Assembly (NCBI RefSeq): GCF_000328665.1
Contig: NC_019977.1
Coordinates: 2,100,011-2,164,010, forward strand
Direction: 5' to 3'
DNA length: 64,000 bases
Origin: Methanomethylovorans hollandica DSM 15978
GTDB taxonomy: Archaea > Halobacteriota > Methanosarcinia > Methanosarcinales > Methanosarcinaceae
Positions within the stretch are counted from its first letter, which is position 1. Every line of letters begins with the position of its first letter. This document shows positions 42,671 to 55,836 of this stretch, piece by piece. The notes below the pieces were generated by a model, which searched no databases, was not told the DNA's origin, and saw only the letters and a list, made by a program, of their open reading frames with translations. Both the position numbers and the translations under genes were made by a program.

Positions 42671-44176
42671 ATGAAGGATAGTGAAAAGGAAATTATTTCC
42701 ACTCTTAAGTATGTCTGCCACATGAAACATGAGTTCATGCTGTCGGAGATAAAGAATTACATTACAAGTGACATGTCCGTAGAACAGATCTATGATATTA
42801 TTAAGCCATTTCTGTACGAGCTGGACATTGATGCCATTCCGGAAGGTGCTGATTTCAGAATGAGGCTGTCTCCTCCTGCAACAGTGATGCAACTTACCGA
42901 GGAAGAAGTAAAGAAAACTGAGATTTTCTTAAGGTCTGCAGTGGTGTCGGCAAAACTGCAAACAGTTATCGAGCAATACATCAGCAAAAAGACCGCAAAG
43001 CAGTGGGATGATCCGGTCGTTCTGGACAGGATCAGAAAAGCAGTCGTAGGTCAGAAGAACGCTTATTGGAGAGAAGGCAGTTCCAGGAAGATCTCTTATG
43101 AAAAAGGCTACAATGTGCTGGGATACCTTGCTTATCACTTCCCGGTGTATTTTGTGCAGTTCCAGCATATGTTATATGACATGGCTCAGGCCGGTATTCT
43201 CAAAACACGCATGAAGATCCTTGATGTGGGCACAGGTCCGGGCACAGTGCCTCTGGCTATTGCCGATTTCTACAAAAGGCTGGAAGGTCGCAAGGCCGAC
43301 ATCTACTGTGTGGAACTGTACGATGAGAATATCGAGGCTTTCAACTCCCTTGTTCCAAACTATGCTTCGGATTCCATAAATCTGCACGAGCCTGTAAGAT
43401 CAGATATACGTAAAATAAAGCCAGAAAGTCTGCCTGAGAATATCGACCTTATGGTGTTCTCGAATGTGCTCAATGAGATAAAAGATATTACCATAGAGCA
43501 AAAAGCGGACATCGTGCTAAAAATGGCTCAAAGACTGGCATCTGATGGCAGTATACTTGTAATAGAGCCCGCAGACAGAGCAAACTCAGTGGAGCTACGC
43601 AGGCTGAGCATTGCGCTCAAGGAAGCTGGTCTTGGCATATATGCCCCATGTTCCTTCATATGGGGTGCAGGCTGCAGCCTTGAAGAATGCTGGAGCTTCG
43701 GGCAAAAGCAGGACATCAATCCAACACTCCTGATGCGCAAACTTGCAGAGTGTGATGAGCCGTACCGTTATATCAATACTGACATTAAGTACTCTTATTT
43801 TATAGTAAGAAAGGATGGCCTAACCAAAGAGTGCTACAGAGTCGCGCCCAAAGCAAAGTTTGCACGTTTCTCCAAAATGAGTACGCACAAAGATAAGCGT
43901 ATCAATGTAGTATGTTCCCTAATGTCAGGTGATCTGGGTGATGAAAAGTACAGCCTTTACAAAATGTGCGACGGCACTTCCAGAAAAGCAGTCTATGCAG
44001 TAATTCCATGGCATAATGTGACTGAGGACAATAGTCTTATTAAACGGGCAGATTACGGAGAGATACTGGAGCTTTATGATGTACTCGTGAACTATAATAA
44101 GGAGAAGGATGCCTATAATCTTCTTCTTAGCAAAGGAAGTACAGTTTACCGGGCAGGTGATGAAAGAGACGATTAA
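42671..44176 (+). CDS. Rsm22-like SAM-dependent methyltransferase
   Basis: A 501-residue protein. The N-terminal 170 residues are helical; the Rossmann methyltransferase core follows: ILDVGTGPGTVPLAIADF (SAM motif I, about 183-200), YCVELYDENIEAF (motif II), IDLMVFSNVLNEI and GSILVIEPADRAN. A Cys cluster (PCSFIWGAGCSLEEC, about 322-336) matches the Fe-S-binding-like region of the Rsm22 family, mitochondrial and archaeal small-subunit assembly methyltransferases. No ribosome binding site is seen before the ATG. Confidence 0.75.
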   Translation: MKDSEKEIISTLKYVCHMKHEFMLSEIKNYITSDMSVEQIYDIIKPFLYELDIDAIPEGADFRMRLSPPATVMQLTEEEVKKTEIFLRSAVVSAKLQTVIEQYISKKTAKQWDDPVVLDRIRKAVVGQKNAYWREGSSRKISYEKGYNVLGYLAYHFPVYFVQFQHMLYDMAQAGILKTRMKILDVGTGPGTVPLAIADFYKRLEGRKADIYCVELYDENIEAFNSLVPNYASDSINLHEPVRSDIRKIKPESLPENIDLMVFSNVLNEIKDITIEQKADIVLKMAQRLASDGSILVIEPADRANSVELRRLSIALKEAGLGIYAPCSFIWGAGCSLEECWSFGQKQDINPTLLMRKLAECDEPYRYINTDIKYSYFIVRKDGLTKECYRVAPKAKFARFSKMSTHKDKRINVVCSLMSGDLGDEKYSLYKMCDGTSRKAVYAVIPWHNVTEDNSLIKRADYGEILELYDVLVNYNKEKDAYNLLLSKGSTVYRAGDERDD

Positions 44177-45710: not shown

Positions 45711-45974
45711 ACTTCTATTGATATGGATGTTATCAATTAACAATAGGCCAGAGGGTTTTTGATCTATATTAAAACCGACCAGAAAGCTTCCAGGCACTTA
45801 TTTTTGATCTCCTGCTATCTTTAGCTGCATTACGGCATCAGAAATACCCCATAGATCATCACATCATGGAAGTATTACGTTTAAAATATTAGCACTTCAT
45901 TTTTATTCTATTAATTACATTAAATTAACTTGTGGACATTCCAGTCCATTTCCAAATCCGGAAGGTCAAGTCAG
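45711..45974. other. Intergenic remainder before the fusion gene
   Basis: About 265 bp after the terminator hold no gene. AT-rich DNA near 45890-45920 may contain the promoter of the next gene; ggaaggt at about 45960 is its ribosome binding site. Confidence 0.4.
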
Positions 45975-47942
45975 ATGAATATAAATACTTTGGTAGATCC
46001 CCAGAAGAAGTGTGCGCCAAAGCCCAAAAGTCTTGGGCCTGTATCCAGTCTTGAAGAACATGTGAACCCTGACTGGTGGAAGAAGATATTCAATTCCCTC
46101 TATCTGAAGACAGATGCTGATGTAGTAGGTGATTCCGAGATAACCAGGGAAGAGATCGATATGTTCCTATCCGTTCTGAACCTTGCGCAGGAGAGTAAGA
46201 TCCTGGACCTGTGTTGCGGACAGGGACGCCACTCCATGGAAGTATCAAGAAGAGGGTTCAAGAACGTGGAAGGACTGGACAGATCTCATTACCTTATTCA
46301 GAAAGCAAAAAGCGTTGCTAAAAGAGAAGGCCTGAATGTTCGTTTCAGGGAAGGGGATGCACGTAAAACACCCTATTCGACTGATAATTTTGATGCTGTG
46401 TTCCTGCTGGGGAACAGTTTTGGTTACTTTGAGACATCCGAAGAGGATCTGAGGGTGCTGAATGAAGTAAAAAGAGTGCTTAAACCCTGGGGAAAAGTCC
46501 TGCTGGACGTGACTGATGGCTCTTACCTGAAATCAAATTATCAGCCCAGGTCCTGGGAATGGATTGATAAGCACAACTTCGTGTGCAGGGAACGTTCTCT
46601 ATCTCTCGATGATCAGAAACTGATCTCCAGGGAGGTAATAGTCAATGATGAACAGGGTGTCATTGCCGATCAGTTCTATGCTGAAAGGCTGTACACACAA
46701 GAGTCACTTCAGGAGCTCCTCAAAAAGGCTGGTTTCAGTGATGTTGAGGTCGTAAACTCCATTGGATCTAACAGTAAGAGGAACCAGGACCTTGGCATGA
46801 TGGAGAAGCGCATAATAATCACTGCTAACCTGCGCAAGGAATGGACAGAACCTAAAAAGAAGGTCCATGCAATACAAAAGGATGTAGTGGTAGTATTCGG
46901 TGATCCGTCCAAGAGAGATTCTCTGAAGCCATGCGGTGTTTTTGATGATGATGATCTGTATACCATTGACCAATTAAAAGGTGCTCTTAAGGAAAGAGGA
47001 GAATATTCTTTCAAGTTCCTGGATAACCATGACACCCTGATACAGGATCTGCAACGCCTTAAGGGAAAAGTGGATTTCATTTTCAACCTTTGTGATGAAG
47101 GTTATTCTAACGATCCACTGAAAGAACTGCATGTGCCGGCTTTGCTTGAGATTCTGGGTATACCTTATACCGGATCAGGTCCTCAATGTCTTGCTTTCTG
47201 TTATGATAAAGCTCTGGTAAGGGGTATTGCTAAGGATCTTGGCGTGCCTGTTTCCGAAGGTATAGTCATTAAGGCGGAGGATGTTCTGTTCGAAGTGCCT
47301 ATGCAGTTCCCTGTAATAGTCAAACCCAACTTCGGGGATTCAAGTTTCGGACTCAATCAGCACAGTGTATGCCATAACCGTGATGAGGTTGTAAGGGCTA
47401 TCTATGACATAAGAGAGGGTCTGGGCTATGATAAGCCCATCCTTGTTGAAGAGTTCCTCACAGGAAAGGATCTGAGCATAGGCATCATAGGAAATCCTCC
47501 GGAGAACTATACGGTTTTACCCATTATAGAGGAGGACTATTCTGAACTTCCTTCCGAATTACCCAGGATGTGCGGTTATGAGGCAAAATGGATCCCTGAT
47601 TCCCCATACTGGAAGATCCATTCCATTGCAGCTGAAATTCCAAAGGATGTTGAAGAGTTCATACTGGAATGCAGCTTAAAGATGATAACAAGGCTCGAGT
47701 GCAGGGATTACACGCGTCTGGACTGGCGTATGGATGCAGCCGGCAACCCAAAGCTACTGGAAGTAAATCCCAATCCCGGATGGTGCTGGGACGGACACCT
47801 GGCTAAAATGGCGGCCTTGGCAGGCATCTCCTATCCGGAAATGATCGCCAGCATCCTCAAAAGCACAGATGAGAGGATAACCGGGGCAGAACCGGTCAAG
47901 AGTTCGGGACCAGTTCCTGAATTTAAATTTGAGCTCTGTTAG
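45975..47942 (+). CDS. SAM methyltransferase fused to D-Ala-D-Ala-ligase-like ATP-grasp
   Basis: A 655-residue fusion. I start at 45975 (ggaaggt upstream); the frame is open from 45930. Residues about 60-285 are a class I methyltransferase (ILDLCCGQGRHSMEVSRRG motif I; DAVFLLGNSFGYF motif IV). Residues about 300-635 are an ATP-grasp ligase like Ddl: IPYTGSGPQCLAFCYDKALV, FPVIVKPNFGDSSFG, ILVEEFLTGKDLSIG and YTRLDWRMDAAGNPKLLEVN, with the final Mg-binding E-x-N. Methanogens of this group have no D-Ala peptidoglycan, so it probably joins a different amino-acid-like substrate that is also methylated, perhaps for a peptide-like natural product or cofactor (inference). Confidence 0.8.
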   Translation: MNINTLVDPQKKCAPKPKSLGPVSSLEEHVNPDWWKKIFNSLYLKTDADVVGDSEITREEIDMFLSVLNLAQESKILDLCCGQGRHSMEVSRRGFKNVEGLDRSHYLIQKAKSVAKREGLNVRFREGDARKTPYSTDNFDAVFLLGNSFGYFETSEEDLRVLNEVKRVLKPWGKVLLDVTDGSYLKSNYQPRSWEWIDKHNFVCRERSLSLDDQKLISREVIVNDEQGVIADQFYAERLYTQESLQELLKKAGFSDVEVVNSIGSNSKRNQDLGMMEKRIIITANLRKEWTEPKKKVHAIQKDVVVVFGDPSKRDSLKPCGVFDDDDLYTIDQLKGALKERGEYSFKFLDNHDTLIQDLQRLKGKVDFIFNLCDEGYSNDPLKELHVPALLEILGIPYTGSGPQCLAFCYDKALVRGIAKDLGVPVSEGIVIKAEDVLFEVPMQFPVIVKPNFGDSSFGLNQHSVCHNRDEVVRAIYDIREGLGYDKPILVEEFLTGKDLSIGIIGNPPENYTVLPIIEEDYSELPSELPRMCGYEAKWIPDSPYWKIHSIAAEIPKDVEEFILECSLKMITRLECRDYTRLDWRMDAAGNPKLLEVNPNPGWCWDGHLAKMAALAGISYPEMIASILKSTDERITGAEPVKSSGPVPEFKFELC

Positions 47943-48252: not shown

Positions 48253-51200
48253 CTATAGGATATCCTCCCTTACCATGTAACCAACGACAGATTCTTTCTC
48301 AATTAAAAAATTTAATACAACTAAAAGTTCTTGTTTCAATTTTACAGTTTTTCTTATATCTTCCCGATTCTTATAACTGTACTTCTTCACAATATTTTCT
48401 ATATAATAAATGGTATTTGTCTCTAACTTCTCATTCCATAAATTCTGATTAGTAGTCAATATTTCAGAAATCCAAGATATGCCATTGTTAAGATAGTTAC
48501 TTCCTATACCATTTAACAATTTTGAAATTGAATAAAGGGTAGAAGTACAAGGCCCTATCTTTTTTATTATATTTGCAAAGAATCGTCTATTAGCATCTGT
48601 TAGTGTTTGCCAATCTGTGTCTTTTTCGTTCCAGTAGGTTTGAGCGAAAAGATAACTTTGCACAATACTTTTTACATCCTTTTGTTTATCACCATCTTTA
48701 CATAAATCAACTACTTTCTCATAAAACATATCCCATACTTTCCAGAAATTATTGTAGCTATTCAACCTATATTCTGCTACTATGAATTCTTCAAATAAGT
48801 CAGCTATAGCTTCTGAACTGCTGAAATTATCAATAAATGGCCTTAGATAAGTAGGAATATCTTGTTCAGAGGAACTCAACGTAAAATATGCTAGTTTTTT
48901 TAAAAAGGAGTGCCCAGTGTTATAATCAACTATTTTCTTGGTTCTGTTAGATAATAGTTCTTTTGCAAAAGTGGAAATAATAGACTGAGCAATTATTTTA
49001 TGCTCGTTATTGTCGGTATTTAATGGGATTATCTTAAAAGCTGTTTTTAATATACGTGGATCTAATTGCTCGATATTTTTTAAATCATCAAATGATATCT
49101 TGTTCTCGATGACTTTTTTTATATCTTCTTCATTCTCTGTTAAGAACTTTTGATTCACTTCCGTATATAAGTCATGTGTATTTCTTACATATTTTCCATA
49201 TCGAAGATCTTTTTTTAATGCTTCATATCTCGGTTTTAGGAGTAAATATCCGAAAAGTAAAGATTGAGCCTCTTTGAAATTTACTGACCATATACTATCG
49301 ATTCCTATAATAGCGAATTCATTGAATTCTGTTCCTGCCATGCCAAAAGTTTCGTCTTTAAACATGGTTAATATCAAAATTATTTTTATTTTTATTTTAT
49401 CTTCTGGAAATTTTTGAAGCAATAGAGGAAGAACAGAAAGTGTTGACTGTGTTCCATCTGATACTTGATATTTGTAATTTGGCTGTAAAGAATGACAAGC
49501 AACATTTAGAACGACCTCTTTACAAAAAATTCTATCATCTGCACTGATATCTCCAAAGTACTCTCTTAATAAAATAGAGCAAACCTCTGCAGGGATGGAA
49601 TAATTAAAAAGATAGAACGTATCTTCAGGGGCTTGCTCTAAAGTATAAACTATTTCTTTAACTTCTTTCAATGCAAGCTGAGGATTATTTTCATATTGTG
49701 TATATTGTTGATGTCTTTGATCATTTTGTATTTTATATTTAGCCCATAATTTTAATCTGCCGTATTTCATTGGTTCCAAGTCATTTTCTACTGATCTGTC
49801 TATGTATTTTCTTAGTTCAGAATCGATCTCAGGGTTTAAATGAATAACAAAACCATCTTCTTTTTCTTCGATTGTAGGTTTAATTTTTCTTTTGTCCATC
49901 CTTGCTAGAAAGAGTCGCCATGTTTTATCATCTTCAGTTTCATCTTGCTTGTTTGGTAGTTTTTGATGATATTCGTCAAGAATATTCCATATAATTCTTT
50001 GTTTTCTATCTGCCTCATTTTCGCTAATATCTTTGCTCCTAAAAAGCTGATAGTTTAAAATTATATTCTCTATGGATAGCTTTCGGTGTTTATCATCACA
50101 AGCTTCTCTCCTCTCGTCTGCATATATTTCTTTTTTGTAGTCTATCCTAAATCCAGCTAAACCCAAAAGGGTATTATTATTGTATTGTTCAGAGAATAAT
50201 CTTTGGGTGTCATAGAATAGTAATTGCTTAGTTTGGAATAGCGCCATTGCAACATTAAAAGTTTTATCGGGATATGCTAAAACAATGCTAGTTACTACTG
50301 CTGTAATAGAAGCTGATTTCGAGTTTTTTAGCAAAAACAATAGCAGCCTTTCTAAAGTCTGTTGATCTGTATATTTCCCAAAATCTAAGAGAAATTTCTC
50401 TAAAGCCATATGGATTGATTCAAGTAGATAAGTAGATCCTTTTGTACCTCTATAAGTGTTCCAAAGTCTATCATTAATGTATTGCTTATAAGTGCGATCA
50501 TCAATTGTGACTTCTACTTCTTCAATTTTGTCTTCATATTTTGCAAAGTCCGACTTTGCATAACAGTCAACTACTTTGTTAGTAAATTTGATTATAAAAA
50601 GGATTGTTTTCTCGGGAGAACGTTTAAGTAACCAATAAATAGGTGTTTGAAATGCACTTGATGGATAGTAATTTTGATGATTTTCTTCTATACAAAAATA
50701 CTTTTCAATTTCCATTATTGAATACGACTCAAATTTTTCTTTTTCAGGGATTTGGAACCAAAATAAATCTGCAAGTTTTAATATGCAATCGGGAAGTGTC
50801 TTAATAACTTCAATGTTTTCCATGCATTTAATCAAAATAGTATTTACCATATCATAATATGGATCTCCGTATCTTTTCCATTTATTATTTAATATGTTTT
50901 CAAAGATCTGATTTAATTCATATTTGATTTCGGATGCACCAGATAAAATAGTTTTGCAAAGATTTTCTTTGACATCACCATGAGAATAGTAGCTATCTTT
51001 TTGAACTAGCCATTGATAATACTTTAAAGCTATTAGACTAGATAATTTTGTGGTTTTTCCGTGCTTGAATTTGCCATTCCAATCGTATATTATGGGTAAT
51101 AAAAAAGAAGTATTTTCCACTCCTATCTGATTCAAAAATTTATACGTAAATTCTATAAGACTATTCCACCCCTCACCCTTGGGTTTGGAAAATATATATT

Positions 51201-52959
51201 CTATTGGATACAAATTTAATTTTTTAATTCCTAATTGTGTAATGAATTCGTAATCAACTTCTTTGCAGGCAATTTTTAGTAAAAATGATATTCTTTTCAG
51301 TAGTTCTTGGTTATTCTCTAGCAATTTCTCTTCAAACAATTCAAAGAAAGTATCTGAATAATCAGAAAGTAAAATCGATATTAAAATCTCATCTTTCCAA
51401 TATAATTGAATCTTTTCATCATCGATTGCTTCTTCAATGAATTGTTGAATTGATTCATCTTTTAATAATAACTTTTCTGAGACCCAATTTCTAAAACTTC
51501 TACGAATCGGAAGCTCTTCTCCAATTCGTTCAAAAAAATCTAAATTATTAGACCTTTTTAAATATGCATTTTGAATTATTCTCTCTAATGCCCATTCTTC
51601 ATAAATATCTTGAGTAATGAAGTAACCTGCTGTATTATATTCTAATATTCCATCATGGTATAATTCTTCCAAAATATATGGATCACAATTTGGGGTCACA
51701 AAGAATTGAGATTCTTTAACTCTTTGCAAAGCAATATGTAAAAAGCATTGTTCCCTTGTTGACTTTGATTTTTTAATTTCTTTATTCCACAAATTGTTTC
51801 TAAAATTCAAATAACCAAGGTTTTCTTTTGTATAGTACTTTAGGTATTCTTTCAAATAGAACGAATTTTTGATAAGTTCTATTACTTTTTTATCCTCTGG
51901 AAGTATGAACCCATGCTTCTGGGATAGTTCAATTAATTTGCCTTCATCTAGAGTTTGTAGATCTATATTGTAAGGTATAATCTTATAAATTTCAATAAAT
52001 TGGTAATTGAGATCTTCTAAATAGTTAGTTCTTGTAGTAAAAATAATCTTCCAATTGTTTTTTATCATGGCAGATAGACACTCTTTAAAAGGATCTGTAT
52101 TTTGTAGATCCAATAATCTTTCTGCCGAATCAATGACAATAATCTTATTTTCTTCCTCTCTATGAGCTTCTATAAAATCTTGTAAATTAAAATTTGAAAA
52201 TAGAACCTTTATGTTGCCTACGTTAAACTCATTAGACTTAAAAATATAGAATGGAATCTTCTTTTCTAATTCTTGGTAATATTTTTTAATGACAGCAGTT
52301 TTTCCTACTCCTCCAACTCCACTTAAGATTATTATCTGTCTTTCACTAATGTTATTTTTAATCTTTTGTAAAATGTTACTTCTGTCAATTTCTATTTTTT
52401 CAGTATCGAACTCTATATATGTTTGAATTTGAGATAGCAATGACTCTGTACTTTTTTCTTTTTCTTTTAAAAGGGTAATAATACTTCCATCTAACAAAAA
52501 GAAGTGAGATGCTATATTTTCATTGGTAGTTGTTACAAAAGGGGATTCAAAAAAGCTTGCTGTTCTCCAATCGATTTCAATACTTAAATCATTGGCTCTT
52601 TGTTCTATAGTTTTTTTTGTTTTTGGAGCATCTTGCCCTGTTCCTTTAGTCCAGTCCAGATTTGTATAAACAATAATTTTAGTAATATCGGGGTAATCTC
52701 TTTTGCTTTTGTTTAACATTTCAGTGAAATCATCGAGATGATCTTTCAAAGGAGTCTCATAAAATTTTGCTTGCCAACCGATTACCTCCCCTTCTTTATT
52801 AATAGGGTTTGTCTCAATCCCAGATTGGTTTTTGTATCGAAAAATGCCCGGAGTCTTGTCGTATTCTTGACAAAAAAGAGAATAGCATAACCACTCAAAA
52901 TTTCTGTGAGGATTGTCACTAAACTTTGCTTTAAATATATTCCAATCTGGTTTAATCAT
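48253..52959 (-). CDS. Avs-like antiviral STAND NTPase with N-terminal nuclease-like domain
   Basis: A 1568-residue protein. Residues 1-150 look like a PD-(D/E)XK/Cap4-type endonuclease domain: E22 in an early helix, G47-I48-E49, then Q63-A64-K65 (IGWQAKF). The NTPase follows: Walker A GVGGVGKT (214-221), Walker B IIVIDSAE (273-280) and WKIIFTTRTN near 303-313, as in STAND ATPases. About 1,200 mostly helical residues with no recognised motif make up the rest, the place where Avs proteins recognise phage proteins. The length and order match Avs (antiviral STAND) sensors. The gene is visibly AT-rich compared with both neighbours, suggesting transfer. No partner gene is adjacent; Avs proteins need none. 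Assignment to a known Avs class is not possible by eye. Confidence 0.72.
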   Translation of the reverse strand: MIKPDWNIFKAKFSDNPHRNFEWLCYSLFCQEYDKTPGIFRYKNQSGIETNPINKEGEVIGWQAKFYETPLKDHLDDFTEMLNKSKRDYPDITKIIVYTNLDWTKGTGQDAPKTKKTIEQRANDLSIEIDWRTASFFESPFVTTTNENIASHFFLLDGSIITLLKEKEKSTESLLSQIQTYIEFDTEKIEIDRSNILQKIKNNISERQIIILSGVGGVGKTAVIKKYYQELEKKIPFYIFKSNEFNVGNIKVLFSNFNLQDFIEAHREEENKIIVIDSAERLLDLQNTDPFKECLSAMIKNNWKIIFTTRTNYLEDLNYQFIEIYKIIPYNIDLQTLDEGKLIELSQKHGFILPEDKKVIELIKNSFYLKEYLKYYTKENLGYLNFRNNLWNKEIKKSKSTREQCFLHIALQRVKESQFFVTPNCDPYILEELYHDGILEYNTAGYFITQDIYEEWALERIIQNAYLKRSNNLDFFERIGEELPIRRSFRNWVSEKLLLKDESIQQFIEEAIDDEKIQLYWKDEILISILLSDYSDTFFELFEEKLLENNQELLKRISFLLKIACKEVDYEFITQLGIKKLNLYPIEYIFSKPKGEGWNSLIEFTYKFLNQIGVENTSFLLPIIYDWNGKFKHGKTTKLSSLIALKYYQWLVQKDSYYSHGDVKENLCKTILSGASEIKYELNQIFENILNNKWKRYGDPYYDMVNTILIKCMENIEVIKTLPDCILKLADLFWFQIPEKEKFESYSIMEIEKYFCIEENHQNYYPSSAFQTPIYWLLKRSPEKTILFIIKFTNKVVDCYAKSDFAKYEDKIEEVEVTIDDRTYKQYINDRLWNTYRGTKGSTYLLESIHMALEKFLLDFGKYTDQQTLERLLLFLLKNSKSASITAVVTSIVLAYPDKTFNVAMALFQTKQLLFYDTQRLFSEQYNNNTLLGLAGFRIDYKKEIYADERREACDDKHRKLSIENIILNYQLFRSKDISENEADRKQRIIWNILDEYHQKLPNKQDETEDDKTWRLFLARMDKRKIKPTIEEKEDGFVIHLNPEIDSELRKYIDRSVENDLEPMKYGRLKLWAKYKIQNDQRHQQYTQYENNPQLALKEVKEIVYTLEQAPEDTFYLFNYSIPAEVCSILLREYFGDISADDRIFCKEVVLNVACHSLQPNYKYQVSDGTQSTLSVLPLLLQKFPEDKIKIKIILILTMFKDETFGMAGTEFNEFAIIGIDSIWSVNFKEAQSLLFGYLLLKPRYEALKKDLRYGKYVRNTHDLYTEVNQKFLTENEEDIKKVIENKISFDDLKNIEQLDPRILKTAFKIIPLNTDNNEHKIIAQSIISTFAKELLSNRTKKIVDYNTGHSFLKKLAYFTLSSSEQDIPTYLRPFIDNFSSSEAIADLFEEFIVAEYRLNSYNNFWKVWDMFYEKVVDLCKDGDKQKDVKSIVQSYLFAQTYWNEKDTDWQTLTDANRRFFANIIKKIGPCTSTLYSISKLLNGIGSNYLNNGISWISEILTTNQNLWNEKLETNTIYYIENIVKKYSYKNREDIRKTVKLKQELLVVLNFLIEKESVVGYMVREDIL

Positions 52960-53390: not shown

Positions 53391-54650
53391 ATGAGAGAAT
53401 TTATAGAACAGCTAAGAAGCAATGGCAAGATCACGGATATCAGGCAGAGTGTTTCAAGGGAGTTCGAAGCACCCAGGATAGCGAAAAAGACACCTGGACC
53501 TGTGTTTTTCCATGATATCGAGGGAAAGAAAGCGATCATGAACCTGCTGGGTACGCGGGATGAGCTTGCAGTCATGCTCGGAGTGCCCCGGGATATGATC
53601 ATTCAGAAACTTTCTGAAGTCCAGCCGAACGGGGAGGTAGTAATAGTTTCGGGGTCTCCTACAATGGAAGTTGTGGATGAGGAGGTTGACCTGTACAGCC
53701 TCCCCATTATGAAACATTTTGCAAAGGACGGAGGTCTTTACATCACTGCCGGTATCGTGGTCAGTGAGTACGAAGGCTCCATGAATGCATCCATACACCG
53801 CCTGATGGTGCTTGATAAGGATAAGCTGGCTGCAAGGCTTGTGCCTCCGAGGCATACCTATGTATTGCACAAAAAGGCTGCTTCAAAGGTAGACAAACTG
53901 CCGATAGCAATTGTCATAGGTGCCGATCCGGTAATAACGTTCGCCTCAACCACCCGTGTGCCCGTAGGAACAGAATTCCACTATGCAGCAGCTCTTAGAG
54001 GTGCTCCGGTGGAATTGTTCGCATGCAGCAATGGCGTGAAAGTTCCTCACGCTGAGATCGTACTGGAAGGTTACATCGACCCTGTGGAACGTGTGTCAGA
54101 AGGACCATTTGTTGATATCACCGGCACTTATGACGAGATACGTCCTGAACCTGTTATACACATTACAAAGATCATACACAGGAAAGATCCCATTTATCAC
54201 GGCATCCTTCCGGCGGGACCGGAACACCTGCTTATGATGGGTGTGCCATACGAACCTAAAATATACAGAGCTGTGAGCGAGGTGACCACAGCGAAGAACG
54301 TGGTGCTCACAGAAGGCGGATGCTGTTATCTGCATGCAGTGGTGCAGATCGAAAAGCAGACCGAAGGTGATGGAAAGAACGCTATCATAGCAGCCTTTGC
54401 AAGCCACACAAGCCTTAAGCATGTGGTGGTAGTGGACGAGGACATCGATATCTTCGACCCGAAGGACGTGGAGTTCGCCATTGCGACCCGCGTAAAGGGC
54501 GACATGGATGTCATGATCATTACCAATGTCCGGGGAAGTTCCCTGGACCCGCGGGGCGCACCTGACGGCACAACTACAAAAATAGGTATAGATGCCACTA
54601 AAGTCCTGAAACAGGTGGAGATATTTGAAAGGGCGAAGATGCCCGAGTAG
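53391..54650 (+). CDS. UbiD-family decarboxylase (trans-anhydromevalonate 5-phosphate decarboxylase)
   Basis: A 419-residue prenylated-FMN-dependent decarboxylase. UbiD motifs: PGPVFFHDIEGKKA, NASIHRLMVLDKDKLAARLVP (prFMN/metal-binding), GTEFHYAAALRGAPVELF, EGPFVDITGTYD (catalytic Glu region). In archaea this branch decarboxylates trans-anhydromevalonate 5-phosphate to isopentenyl phosphate. The next two genes are the large and small subunits of phosphomevalonate dehydratase, which makes its substrate; that context is the main evidence for the specific role. A UbiX-type prenyltransferase should be elsewhere in the genome. Confidence 0.88.
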   Translation: MREFIEQLRSNGKITDIRQSVSREFEAPRIAKKTPGPVFFHDIEGKKAIMNLLGTRDELAVMLGVPRDMIIQKLSEVQPNGEVVIVSGSPTMEVVDEEVDLYSLPIMKHFAKDGGLYITAGIVVSEYEGSMNASIHRLMVLDKDKLAARLVPPRHTYVLHKKAASKVDKLPIAIVIGADPVITFASTTRVPVGTEFHYAAALRGAPVELFACSNGVKVPHAEIVLEGYIDPVERVSEGPFVDITGTYDEIRPEPVIHITKIIHRKDPIYHGILPAGPEHLLMMGVPYEPKIYRAVSEVTTAKNVVLTEGGCCYLHAVVQIEKQTEGDGKNAIIAAFASHTSLKHVVVVDEDIDIFDPKDVEFAIATRVKGDMDVMIITNVRGSSLDPRGAPDGTTTKIGIDATKVLKQVEIFERAKMPE

Positions 54651-54657
54651 GTGGACC

Positions 54658-55836
54658 ATGTATCTTACAACAGAAGAACAGGCAATGCTCGATGGCGAAG
54701 AAGGCGAAACACTTCGGAAGGCCATTGAGATACTGGTTTCCCTGGGCGATATTTACGGTGCTGACAGGCTAATTCCTGTCAAGAGCGCACAGATTGCCGG
54801 TGTTTCCTACAAGACCATAGGCGATGCAGGCCTGGAATGGATATCTGATCTGCATGGCAAAGTAAGGATCCCCTCCATACTCAATCCTGCGGGCATGGAC
54901 CTGCAGGACTGGGAAAAAATGCGGATAGATCCGGAATTTGCACATAAACAACAGCTTATTATTGAAGCTTACGAAAAACTGGGTATCAGCTCCAAATGCA
55001 CGTGTACTCCCTATTATCTGGAAGGATTCAATGCCATCTGCGCAGATCACCTTGCATGGAGCGAGTCATCCGCAGTCTCCTATGCAAATTCCGTCATCGG
55101 GGCAAGGACTAACCGTGAAGGTGGTCCATCAGCTCTCTCGGCAGCCCTTGTGGGCAAGACTGCCAACTATGGATACCATCTCGATGAGATGCGCAAACCC
55201 ACAGTATCGGTTACAGTGGATTATGAACTGAAGGGCTCTGATTACGGTGCCCTTGGGTATATCGTAGGGAATATAGTGGGCAGCAGAGTGCCTTTGTTCA
55301 TCCTGAAAGGCAAGCCTGACAATGAAGAGCTGAAGTCGCTGGGTGCTGCCATGGCCGCTTCCGGAGCTGTTGCCCTGTATCATGTGGAAGGCGTTACCCC
55401 TGAAGCAAGGAAGAACAAATTTGCAAGGCCCGATGAGAACATAGTCATCGAGGAAAGTCAGATAAGGGAAATATACGACAAGACAAAACCCGACATCAAT
55501 GACCTGGATATCATAACAATAGGCTGTCCGCATTGTTCCCCGGCCGAACTTTCTCTGATAGCAGGATTGCTTGAAGGCACGACCGTTAGTAAGGAAGTGT
55601 GGATCTGCACTTCCAGGGAAGTTGCAAACAAGTATGCTGGAATTGTAAAGTCCATTGAGAAAAGCGGGGCAAAAGTGATCTGCGATACATGTATGGTCGT
55701 ATCACCGGCAACTGAAAAATATAAGGCGATGATGGTGAATTCCGGCAAAGCCCTGGCATACGTACCCGGTATGTGTGGGGTTCCCACCCTCTTTGGTGAT
55801 ATCTATAAATGTATCAGGGAGGCGGTGAAGGAATGA
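54658..55836 (+). CDS. Phosphomevalonate dehydratase large subunit (aconitase X)
   Basis: A 392-residue aconitase X catalytic subunit. I start at 54658 (MYLTTEEQAML), with aggtgg just before, overlapping the UbiD stop. The Fe-S cluster cysteines are in SSKCTCTPYY (about residue 112), GCPHCSP (about 290) and DTCMV (about 342). YGADRLIPVKSAQIAGVSYKTIG and NSVIGARTNREGGPSA are aconitase X signatures. With the small subunit it dehydrates mevalonate 5-phosphate to trans-anhydromevalonate 5-phosphate in the archaeal mevalonate pathway. Confidence 0.88.
   Translation: MYLTTEEQAMLDGEEGETLRKAIEILVSLGDIYGADRLIPVKSAQIAGVSYKTIGDAGLEWISDLHGKVRIPSILNPAGMDLQDWEKMRIDPEFAHKQQLIIEAYEKLGISSKCTCTPYYLEGFNAICADHLAWSESSAVSYANSVIGARTNREGGPSALSAALVGKTANYGYHLDEMRKPTVSVTVDYELKGSDYGALGYIVGNIVGSRVPLFILKGKPDNEELKSLGAAMAASGAVALYHVEGVTPEARKNKFARPDENIVIEESQIREIYDKTKPDINDLDIITIGCPHCSPAELSLIAGLLEGTTVSKEVWICTSREVANKYAGIVKSIEKSGAKVICDTCMVVSPATEKYKAMMVNSGKALAYVPGMCGVPTLFGDIYKCIREAVKE

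Follow-up and report, generated by a model that had tools for sequence, protein, structure and literature searches.

On the forward strand of the Methanomethylovorans hollandica DSM 15978 genome, within the 64,000-nucleotide stretch analysed here (contig NC_019977.1, positions 2,100,011 to 2,164,010; hereafter the window), a single gene at window positions 45975–47942 encodes a 655-residue protein in which a class I methyltransferase is fused to an ATP-grasp ligase with a fold like that of D-Ala-D-Ala ligase (Ddl). The original prediction had placed such a fusion at exactly these positions, and both domains score above their Pfam cut-offs on the one chain: Methyltransf_25 reaches 72.4 bits (cut-off 27, residues 76–173) and Dala_Dala_lig_C 92.3 bits (cut-off 24, residues 442–628). 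The frame opens with an ATG at 45975 and its stop codon ends at 47942; close relatives share the same start methionine, and a ribosome-binding-site-like GGAAGGT, read from the sequence, lies at 45960–45966, 8 bases 5′ of the ATG. We rejected an alternative TTG start at 45930 because the first in-frame start of the close relatives L009, L026 and L027 is the methionine at 45975; L010 and L028, unlike these three, have an upstream in-frame start.

The methyltransferase half (46059–46832, residues 29–286, from Pfam) comprises a Rossmann core and a cap; modelled separately over residues 18–300, it was predicted to be a class I methyltransferase with cap, with a predicted local distance difference test score (pLDDT) of 88.7. 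Sequence alignment locates S-adenosylmethionine (SAM) motif I, ILDLCCGQGRH, at 46200–46232 (residues 76–86), and the cap carries the motif PRSWEW at 46545–46562 (residues 191–196). A linker that is variable in the alignment (46833–46874, residues 287–300; pLDDT below 50 at residues 294–298) leads into the ligase half (46875–47882, residues 301–636 from Pfam, 301–640 in VIA-align). Three motifs mark this half: the family-specific N-terminal GDPxKxDxxKPxxxFDxDD (46899–46955, residues 309–327), which in alignments replaces the GGxSxExE of Ddl; the omega-loop motif CGYEAKW (47571–47591, residues 533–539); and NPNPGWCWDGH (47766–47798, residues 598–608), which combines metal/nucleotide and acceptor-side positions. 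The full-length model has a mean pLDDT of 82.8; since its whole-model predicted template modelling score is 0.54, we make no claim about how the halves are arranged.

Both halves are conserved as one protein

We counted residue conservation on 74 of 90 fusion sequences, after dropping those more than 90% identical; the L034 and L035 fusions were left out of conservation, tree and neighbour counts, while L034 appears in alignment A1. Invariant in all 74 are Trp34, Trp35, Ser193, Trp194, Glu195, Trp196, Cys533, Lys538, Trp539, Arg581, Asp583, Trp584 and Arg585. Arg192 of the cap motif is kept in 71 of 74, with His in the other 3; Tyr535 of the omega-loop motif is kept throughout; and Asn598, Asn600 and Gly602 to His608 are kept in 73 of 74, with one gap. 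The ATP-grasp catalytic positions behave likewise, Lys450, Lys538, Arg581 and Asp583 in 74 of 74 and Glu596 and Asn598 in 73 with one gap, and SAM motif I is intact too. The intact motifs predicted for both domains are thus borne out.

The ratio of non-synonymous to synonymous substitution rates (dN/dS) was computed for each half against three close relatives and one Methanolobus sequence. It is 0.03–0.07 in the methyltransferase half and the ligase half alike, in the four of five pairs with estimable dS (dS was saturated in the fifth, L032); both halves are under purifying selection. Full-length fusions (n = 46) align to the window protein at 57–91% identity. A chance fusion, a frameshift artefact and a run-on were each rejected, since both halves were matched in all 80 loci kept from the survey described below and selection acts on both. 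The window genome (2.71 Mb, two contigs) holds only one full-length copy of the fusion, which is also its single match to the ligase half at an E-value of 1e-5.

The fusion is broad yet patchy in distribution

A scan of the genome_contigs collection returned at least 590 stretches, 586 of which encode some relative, and we kept the best 80. These are 62–94% identical and cover both halves in every case (the shortest, L038, spans residues 97–636). The nearest named matches are Methanosarcinaceae archaeon UBA470 (94%), Methanococcoides sp. EBM-47, a metagenome-assembled genome (MAG; 91%), and Methanomethylovorans sp. MAG 282 (89%). Archaeal hosts among the 80 include Methanosarcinaceae, Methanophagales, Lokiarchaeota, Jordarchaeia and Nitrososphaerota, and bacterial hosts include Planctomycetota, Atribacterota, Desulfobacteraceae, Aminicenantes, Spirochaetes, Zixibacteria, Stahlbacteria and TA06; most of these are MAGs. 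The original prediction had treated the fusion as a trait of Methanosarcinaceae, which does not hold: the same fusion recurs at about 57–70% identity in many archaeal and bacterial phyla, and its presence within Methanosarcinaceae is itself patchy.

Phylum samples gave the fusion in 37 of 246 genomes for the window phylum (E-value 1e-100; some copies partial or with stops), 26 of 148 around a Lokiarchaeota genome, full-length copies in 6 of 198 for the Desulfonema phylum, 4 of 199 for Planctomycetota and a close copy in 1 of 251 for Chloroflexota, the seed genome only; the last four samples each contain at least one genome already known as a carrier. From these counts and the genome_contigs matches, we conclude that the gene is broad but patchy in distribution. 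At 60% identity or more, the methyltransferase half occurred in 31 genomes at 32 places across three phylum samples, and 31 of the 32 are open frames of 639–711 residues, a length with room for both halves; the remaining place (G703) has a 487-residue frame in a locus that ends 573 bases past the match, apparently at a contig end. A hunt for split genes, using the methyltransferase half in the three phylum samples and the ligase half in 246 genomes, found two-ORF (open reading frame) copies in L224 (G241) and L225 (G063), which have the look of MAG genes interrupted by a stop or frameshift, or may be natural splits; the copies in G181 and G168 have an internal stop. In the phage collection, 20 records matched, each to just one of the two halves and below 80% coverage of the query, and PHROGs gave weak methyltransferase matches only.

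In a quick tree of 86 fusions, with SH-aLRT support only, phyla are intermixed on short inner branches. The window fusion falls within a fully supported Methanomethylovorans/Methanolobus branch, and other Methanosarcinaceae rows (L012–L017) form a separate supported branch. This mixing fits lineage-to-lineage transfer of the whole fusion, as it may fit MAG binning errors or paralogy. Both domain families are already known; a description of the two as one fusion was found nowhere in the open-access literature searched (one library).

The ligase half stands apart from D-Ala-D-Ala ligases

Against solved Ddl and D-Ala-D-Lac ligases, the model of the ligase half gave a best VIA-align Z of 29.0 (308 residues, root-mean-square deviation 3.3), and this modelled half combines the Ddl fold with an absence of the Ddl specificity residues. 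NCBIfam Ddl models among the best 25 of 83 matches all stay under their cut-offs on the fusion (PRK01372, 133.4 versus 243; TIGR01205, 120.3 versus 245.65), while a control, the Ddl that adjoins the fusion in the Atribacteria contig L041, passes at 480.7 versus 262.

We aligned the fusions jointly with this Ddl and another that we identified from its motif; both carry the Ddl sequence GGxSxE(R/H)E(V/I)S. In the fusions this is replaced by GDPxKxDxxKPxxxFDxDD, of which Asp324, Asp326 and Asp327 form an invariant acidic stretch at the place where the motif glutamate of Ddl binds the substrate amine. Trp539 stands at the Ddl loop-tyrosine position in 74 of 74 fusions, and GWCWDGH takes the place of the acceptor-side loop, with the ATP/Mg residues retained. 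Trp539, Trp584, Trp603 and Trp605 may together form an aromatic cage. The position of DdlB Ser150 is Ser456 (Ser in 72 of 74, Ala in 2); Ser150 and Tyr216 of DdlB are reported to be conserved in Ddls producing D-Ala-D-Ala only (PMC7691350). In a 30-row tree with some long branches, four Ddls form one clade (100/100) and ten fusions lie outside it.

Because its Ddl scores fall below the cut-offs among the best 25 of 83 matches, the N-terminal Ddl motif is missing, the loop tyrosine is a tryptophan and the fusions branch outside the Ddl clade, we reject the assignment of the ligase half to the D-Ala-D-Ala ligases; its likeness to Ddl lies in the ATP-grasp fold, the ATP/Mg residues and the serine at the Ser150 position, and the fused methyltransferase is one more difference. 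The predicted mismatch with a D-Ala cell wall likewise stands: alongside the sub-cut-off scores, the alanine racemase C-domain was not found in the window genome, and was present in 8 of 14 control genomes. A pangenomic study of pseudomurein described the evidence for Ddl orthologues in archaea (Methanobacteriales, Methanopyrales) as uncompelling (PMC11915815). A match of the ATP-grasp pocket to a ligase of a known archaeal cofactor would have told against the original prediction. The pocket residues differ from those of Ddl, and the comparisons run gave no match to such a ligase, RimK/CofF/MptN-type enzymes being absent from the best 25 of 83 NCBIfam matches and not directly compared.

The methyltransferase half is closest to NmbA

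The top PDB profile match of the methyltransferase half is 9ri2 (153 bits, E-value 5.9e-44; runner-up 102 bits), titled as the bacillithiol methyltransferase NmbA of Chlorobaculum tepidum. Profile positions 15–250 align to NmbA 14–246, through core and cap alike, and by eye the two have F-x-P-R and ER-LS stretches in common in the cap region. NmbA is reported to N-methylate the cysteinyl amine of bacillithiol (PMC6282198, PMC12719100). The 50 structural neighbours listed by VIA-align range from Z 24.8 to 21.1, with NmbA at 22.9, and include N-, C- and O-methyltransferases; among the N-methyltransferases found by Foldseek or VIA-align are CypM, which is also the top Foldseek row, GSMT and TylM1. 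GSMT, a glycine sarcosine N-methyltransferase of Methanohalophilus, shares the class I fold (Z about 22), but its sequence profile aligns over residues 16–174 only, and NCBIfam GlySarMtaseBact scores 49.8 bits against a cut-off of 350.

Unlike the fusion, NmbA is a stand-alone enzyme. BshC, the sole marker of bacillithiol synthesis that we used, was present in 2 of 20 genomes tested, several of them incomplete MAGs, and was not found in the window genome; the fusion is present in 19 of these, whereas the twentieth, G395, has a stand-alone methyltransferase only. The acceptor is therefore probably not bacillithiol, which few of these genomes are likely to use as the substrate.

Two loci hold stand-alone methyltransferases in other company. 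At L160:6939–8642 (+), a methyltransferase 51–52% identical to the fusion half directly follows a pair of neighbouring small SET-domain genes, themselves preceded by a gene that by eye is ABC-transporter-like; at L162:4568–8859 (+), a DUF885 gene, a possible ATP-grasp (a YheCD match below its curated cut-off) and a 40%-identical stand-alone methyltransferase lie in a row.

Several non-fused ATP-grasp relatives accompany amino-acid enzymes

Eight genomes of the window phylum that lack an intact fusion hold ATP-grasps 32–37% identical to the ligase half, and in all six loci examined (L216–L221, from six of the eight genomes) a KamA-like aminomutase gene adjoins the ATP-grasp. Five of these loci (L216–L219 and L221) are operons of KamA-like aminomutase, Ddl-like ATP-grasps and GNAT, their domains variously fused: KamA, ATP-grasp, ATP-grasp::GNAT in L216 and L219; KamA::ATP-grasp, ATP-grasp, GNAT in L217; and KamA with ATP-grasp::GNAT as ORFs in L218 and L221, where the second ATP-grasp was seen by the ligase-half search. 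In four of these operons the GNAT, a capping-type enzyme, forms one protein with a ligase, and the five perhaps encode a pathway to a beta-amino-acid peptide or solute. The M. hollandica fusion resembles them in its non-Ddl ATP-grasp and in joining a capping enzyme to a ligase; it differs in having a methyltransferase in place of the GNAT, in being a lone gene and in having no aminomutase beside it. N-acetylglutaminylglutamine amide (NAGGN) synthetase is reportedly a GNAT/ATP-grasp fusion that makes a dipeptide solute; likened by description only, it shares the union of capping enzyme and ATP-grasp, but acetylates where the fusion would methylate.

In the sixth locus (L220:1991–6894, –), the ends of a broken fusion gene, equivalent to residues 4–166 (with an internal gap) and 560–647 of a related fusion, enclose an ATP-grasp, GNAT-like and AblA-like genes (the last at 531.5 bits against a cut-off of 525.4) and a 165-residue ORF. 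Insertion, displacement by a related system and misassembly of the MAG could each account for this arrangement. In Thioflavicoccus, a stand-alone ATP-grasp sits with KamA and with genes of diaminopropionate/diaminobutyrate type: SbnA, an ornithine-cyclodeaminase-like gene and a diaminobutyrate transaminase. Elsewhere (L018, L019, L148, L226), proteins of about 720 residues join a Ddl-like ATP-grasp to a C-terminal part that by eye is M28/M20-type peptidase-like.

The neighbourhood of the fusion varies between lineages

In the window, the fusion is flanked upstream by a 459-residue protein and downstream by a convergent 1568-residue Avs4 defence gene, with no evident pathway partner beside it. 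The neighbour cluster seen most often is present at 16 of 163 loci, many of which belong to close relatives. Of 69 adjacent genes that run in the direction of the fusion (non-redundant, less than 250 bases away, at least 100 residues), no Pfam family recurs in more than three at an E-value of 1e-5. Recurrence is lineage-limited: CitMHS-type transporters in several archaeal lineages; an AstE/AspA hydrolase in TA06, Desulfonema and Desulfobacteraceae, with a 16-base overlap in Desulfonema as called; M32 carboxypeptidases on deltaproteobacterial contigs; and CorA and, by eye, MgtE. A Zixibacteria contig has an ABC transporter pair (by eye) 16 bases upstream of the fusion, and in four Nitrososphaerota contigs (L060, L072, L078, L087) a gamma-glutamylcyclotransferase-like gene, named by eye, converges on it.

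A candidate ligase and N-methyltransferase of amino acids

We propose, with confidence close to evenly balanced, that the gene encodes a stand-alone bifunctional enzyme, amino-acid ligase and amine N-methyltransferase in one, that makes an N-methylated dipeptide-like metabolite. The ATP-grasp half would activate one amino acid, or an acid resembling one, at its carboxylate as an acyl phosphate and join it through an amide bond to the amine of a second; the NmbA/CypM-like half would use SAM to methylate the alpha-amine left free in the product, or that of the first building block, yielding an N-methylated dipeptide-like small molecule as a free metabolite. Ligation plus methylation, the two steps originally predicted, is thus retained as the most economical reading. 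We infer catalysis by both halves, the amino-acid substrates, N- over C- or O-methylation, the order of the steps and the free product from comparison with relatives. Ligase activity is suggested by the retained catalytic Lys, Arg, Asp, Glu and Asn positions on a Ddl fold; amino-acid substrates are suggested because non-fused non-Ddl ATP-grasps sit with amino-acid enzymes; and N-methylation is suggested by NmbA as the top profile match, with CypM, GSMT and TylM1 as neighbours.

Several observations weigh against this assignment. The substrates would be assigned wholly by analogy, and no neighbour gene or operon is conserved across fusion loci. Identity of the methyltransferase half to NmbA is just 24% and 28% in two structural comparisons, below the 35% lower limit used for the network of the NmbA authors (PMC12719100). 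Its structural neighbours also include the C- and O-methyltransferases SeMT, PsmD and TleD, so that the acceptor atom cannot be read from structure alone. Unfused methyltransferases 40–52% identical exist (L157–L159) in genomes whose matches to the ligase half reach only 28–35% identity, those at 33–35% in G329 and G366 carrying the Ddl motif; as these methyltransferases lack a close ligase match, the type can presumably work without the fusion ligase. Among non-fused ATP-grasps, those of Sinorhizobium plasmids (31–34% identical) have no aminomutase nearby in the annotation given, nor do those joined to a peptidase-like part, and the 30-row tree singles out none of the non-fused groups as sister to the fusions.

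For the role of such a metabolite, a compatible solute and a low-molecular-weight thiol are the two hypotheses with some support. N-epsilon-acetyl-beta-lysine and NAGGN serve other microbes as solutes, and it is conceivable, though unlikely, that the fusion makes a neutral or zwitterionic N-methylated (pseudo)dipeptide for the same use. This would accord with the lysine-2,3-aminomutase-like genes beside related non-fused ATP-grasps, accompanied by GNAT in L216–L219 and L221; with the AblA-like, GNAT-like and ATP-grasp genes between the fusion ends of L220; and with CitMHS-cluster transporters that adjoin the fusion or lie at most three genes away in several archaeal loci. In Methanosarcina mazei, ablA and ablB are reported to produce N-epsilon-acetyl-beta-lysine (PMC1224877). 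Set against a solute, no KamA-like ORF (E-value 1e-8) occurs in any intact-fusion locus, many of which extend about 1.5 kb per side; L220 is a single contig of a MAG, where misassembly is possible; and neighbours such as CorA, MFS and MgtE-like (by eye) genes fit many readings.

A different enzymology, somewhat less probable again, would have the ATP-grasp half attach an amino acid to a protein, with an effect like that of RimK, for the methyltransferase to methylate. The stand-alone, highly conserved gene without pathway partners would suit this, as would the position of the L160 methyltransferase after two SET-domain genes and the top Foldseek rank of CypM, a peptide N-terminal methyltransferase; yet presence in 37 of 246 genomes of the window phylum is unusual for a core modification, and enzymes of the Ddl fold typically link free amino acids to one another.

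Returning to the free metabolite, a new low-molecular-weight thiol, in which the ligase adds cysteine, or adds to it, and the methyltransferase methylates the cysteinyl amine as NmbA does, seems to us improbable. NmbA is the closest solved methyltransferase by a clear margin, aligned through the cap, and the scarcity of BshC would call for an acceptor other than bacillithiol; its low identity to the fusion tells against this role, no known thiol gene recurs beside the fusion, and the gamma-glutamylcyclotransferase-like neighbour, named by eye only, lies on the opposite strand. Lastly, the fold, the Pfam domain and the retained catalytic residues might suggest a true D-Ala-D-Ala or D-Ala-D-X ligase that serves a cryptic cell wall. 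That reading is already contradicted and may be set aside, given Ddl scores of at best 133.4 against 243 (best 25 of 83 matches) beside a control that passes, the Tyr-to-Trp change in 74 of 74, the branching outside the Ddl clade and the lack of a detected alanine racemase C-domain in the window genome.

With near-invariant Trp-rich ligase motifs and no conserved operon around it, the fusion is likely to turn common precursors into a specific product. More tentatively, and on balance we doubt it, scattered and largely anaerobic archaea and bacteria may have in common one unrecognised N-methylated dipeptide-like metabolite that does the job of known solutes or thiols, its gene having passed between domains of life as one piece. 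That an enzyme of about 600 residues found in methanogens is still roughly 57–70% identical in Planctomycetes, Asgard archaea and sulfate reducers would surprise a specialist, for its breadth and for its conservation. A single gene may suffice, so the product is directly testable, and knowing it would show the function of such 'D-Ala-D-Ala ligases' in archaea whose walls contain no D-Ala.

Other genes in the window

Upstream of the fusion, at 42671–44176 (+), lies a gene for a 501-residue Rsm22-like methyltransferase protein with an extra N-terminal region; an Rsm22-like gene is also found upstream of the fusion in three related loci (L026–L028). The Avs4 anti-phage gene downstream, at 48253–52959 (–), scores 2113 bits against NCBIfam NF041815 (cut-off 1500), here in a methanogen. 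Further on, at 53391–55836 (+), a UbiD-like ORF is followed by one that by eye resembles aconitase X, a pair that we take to recall that of the archaeal mevalonate pathway.

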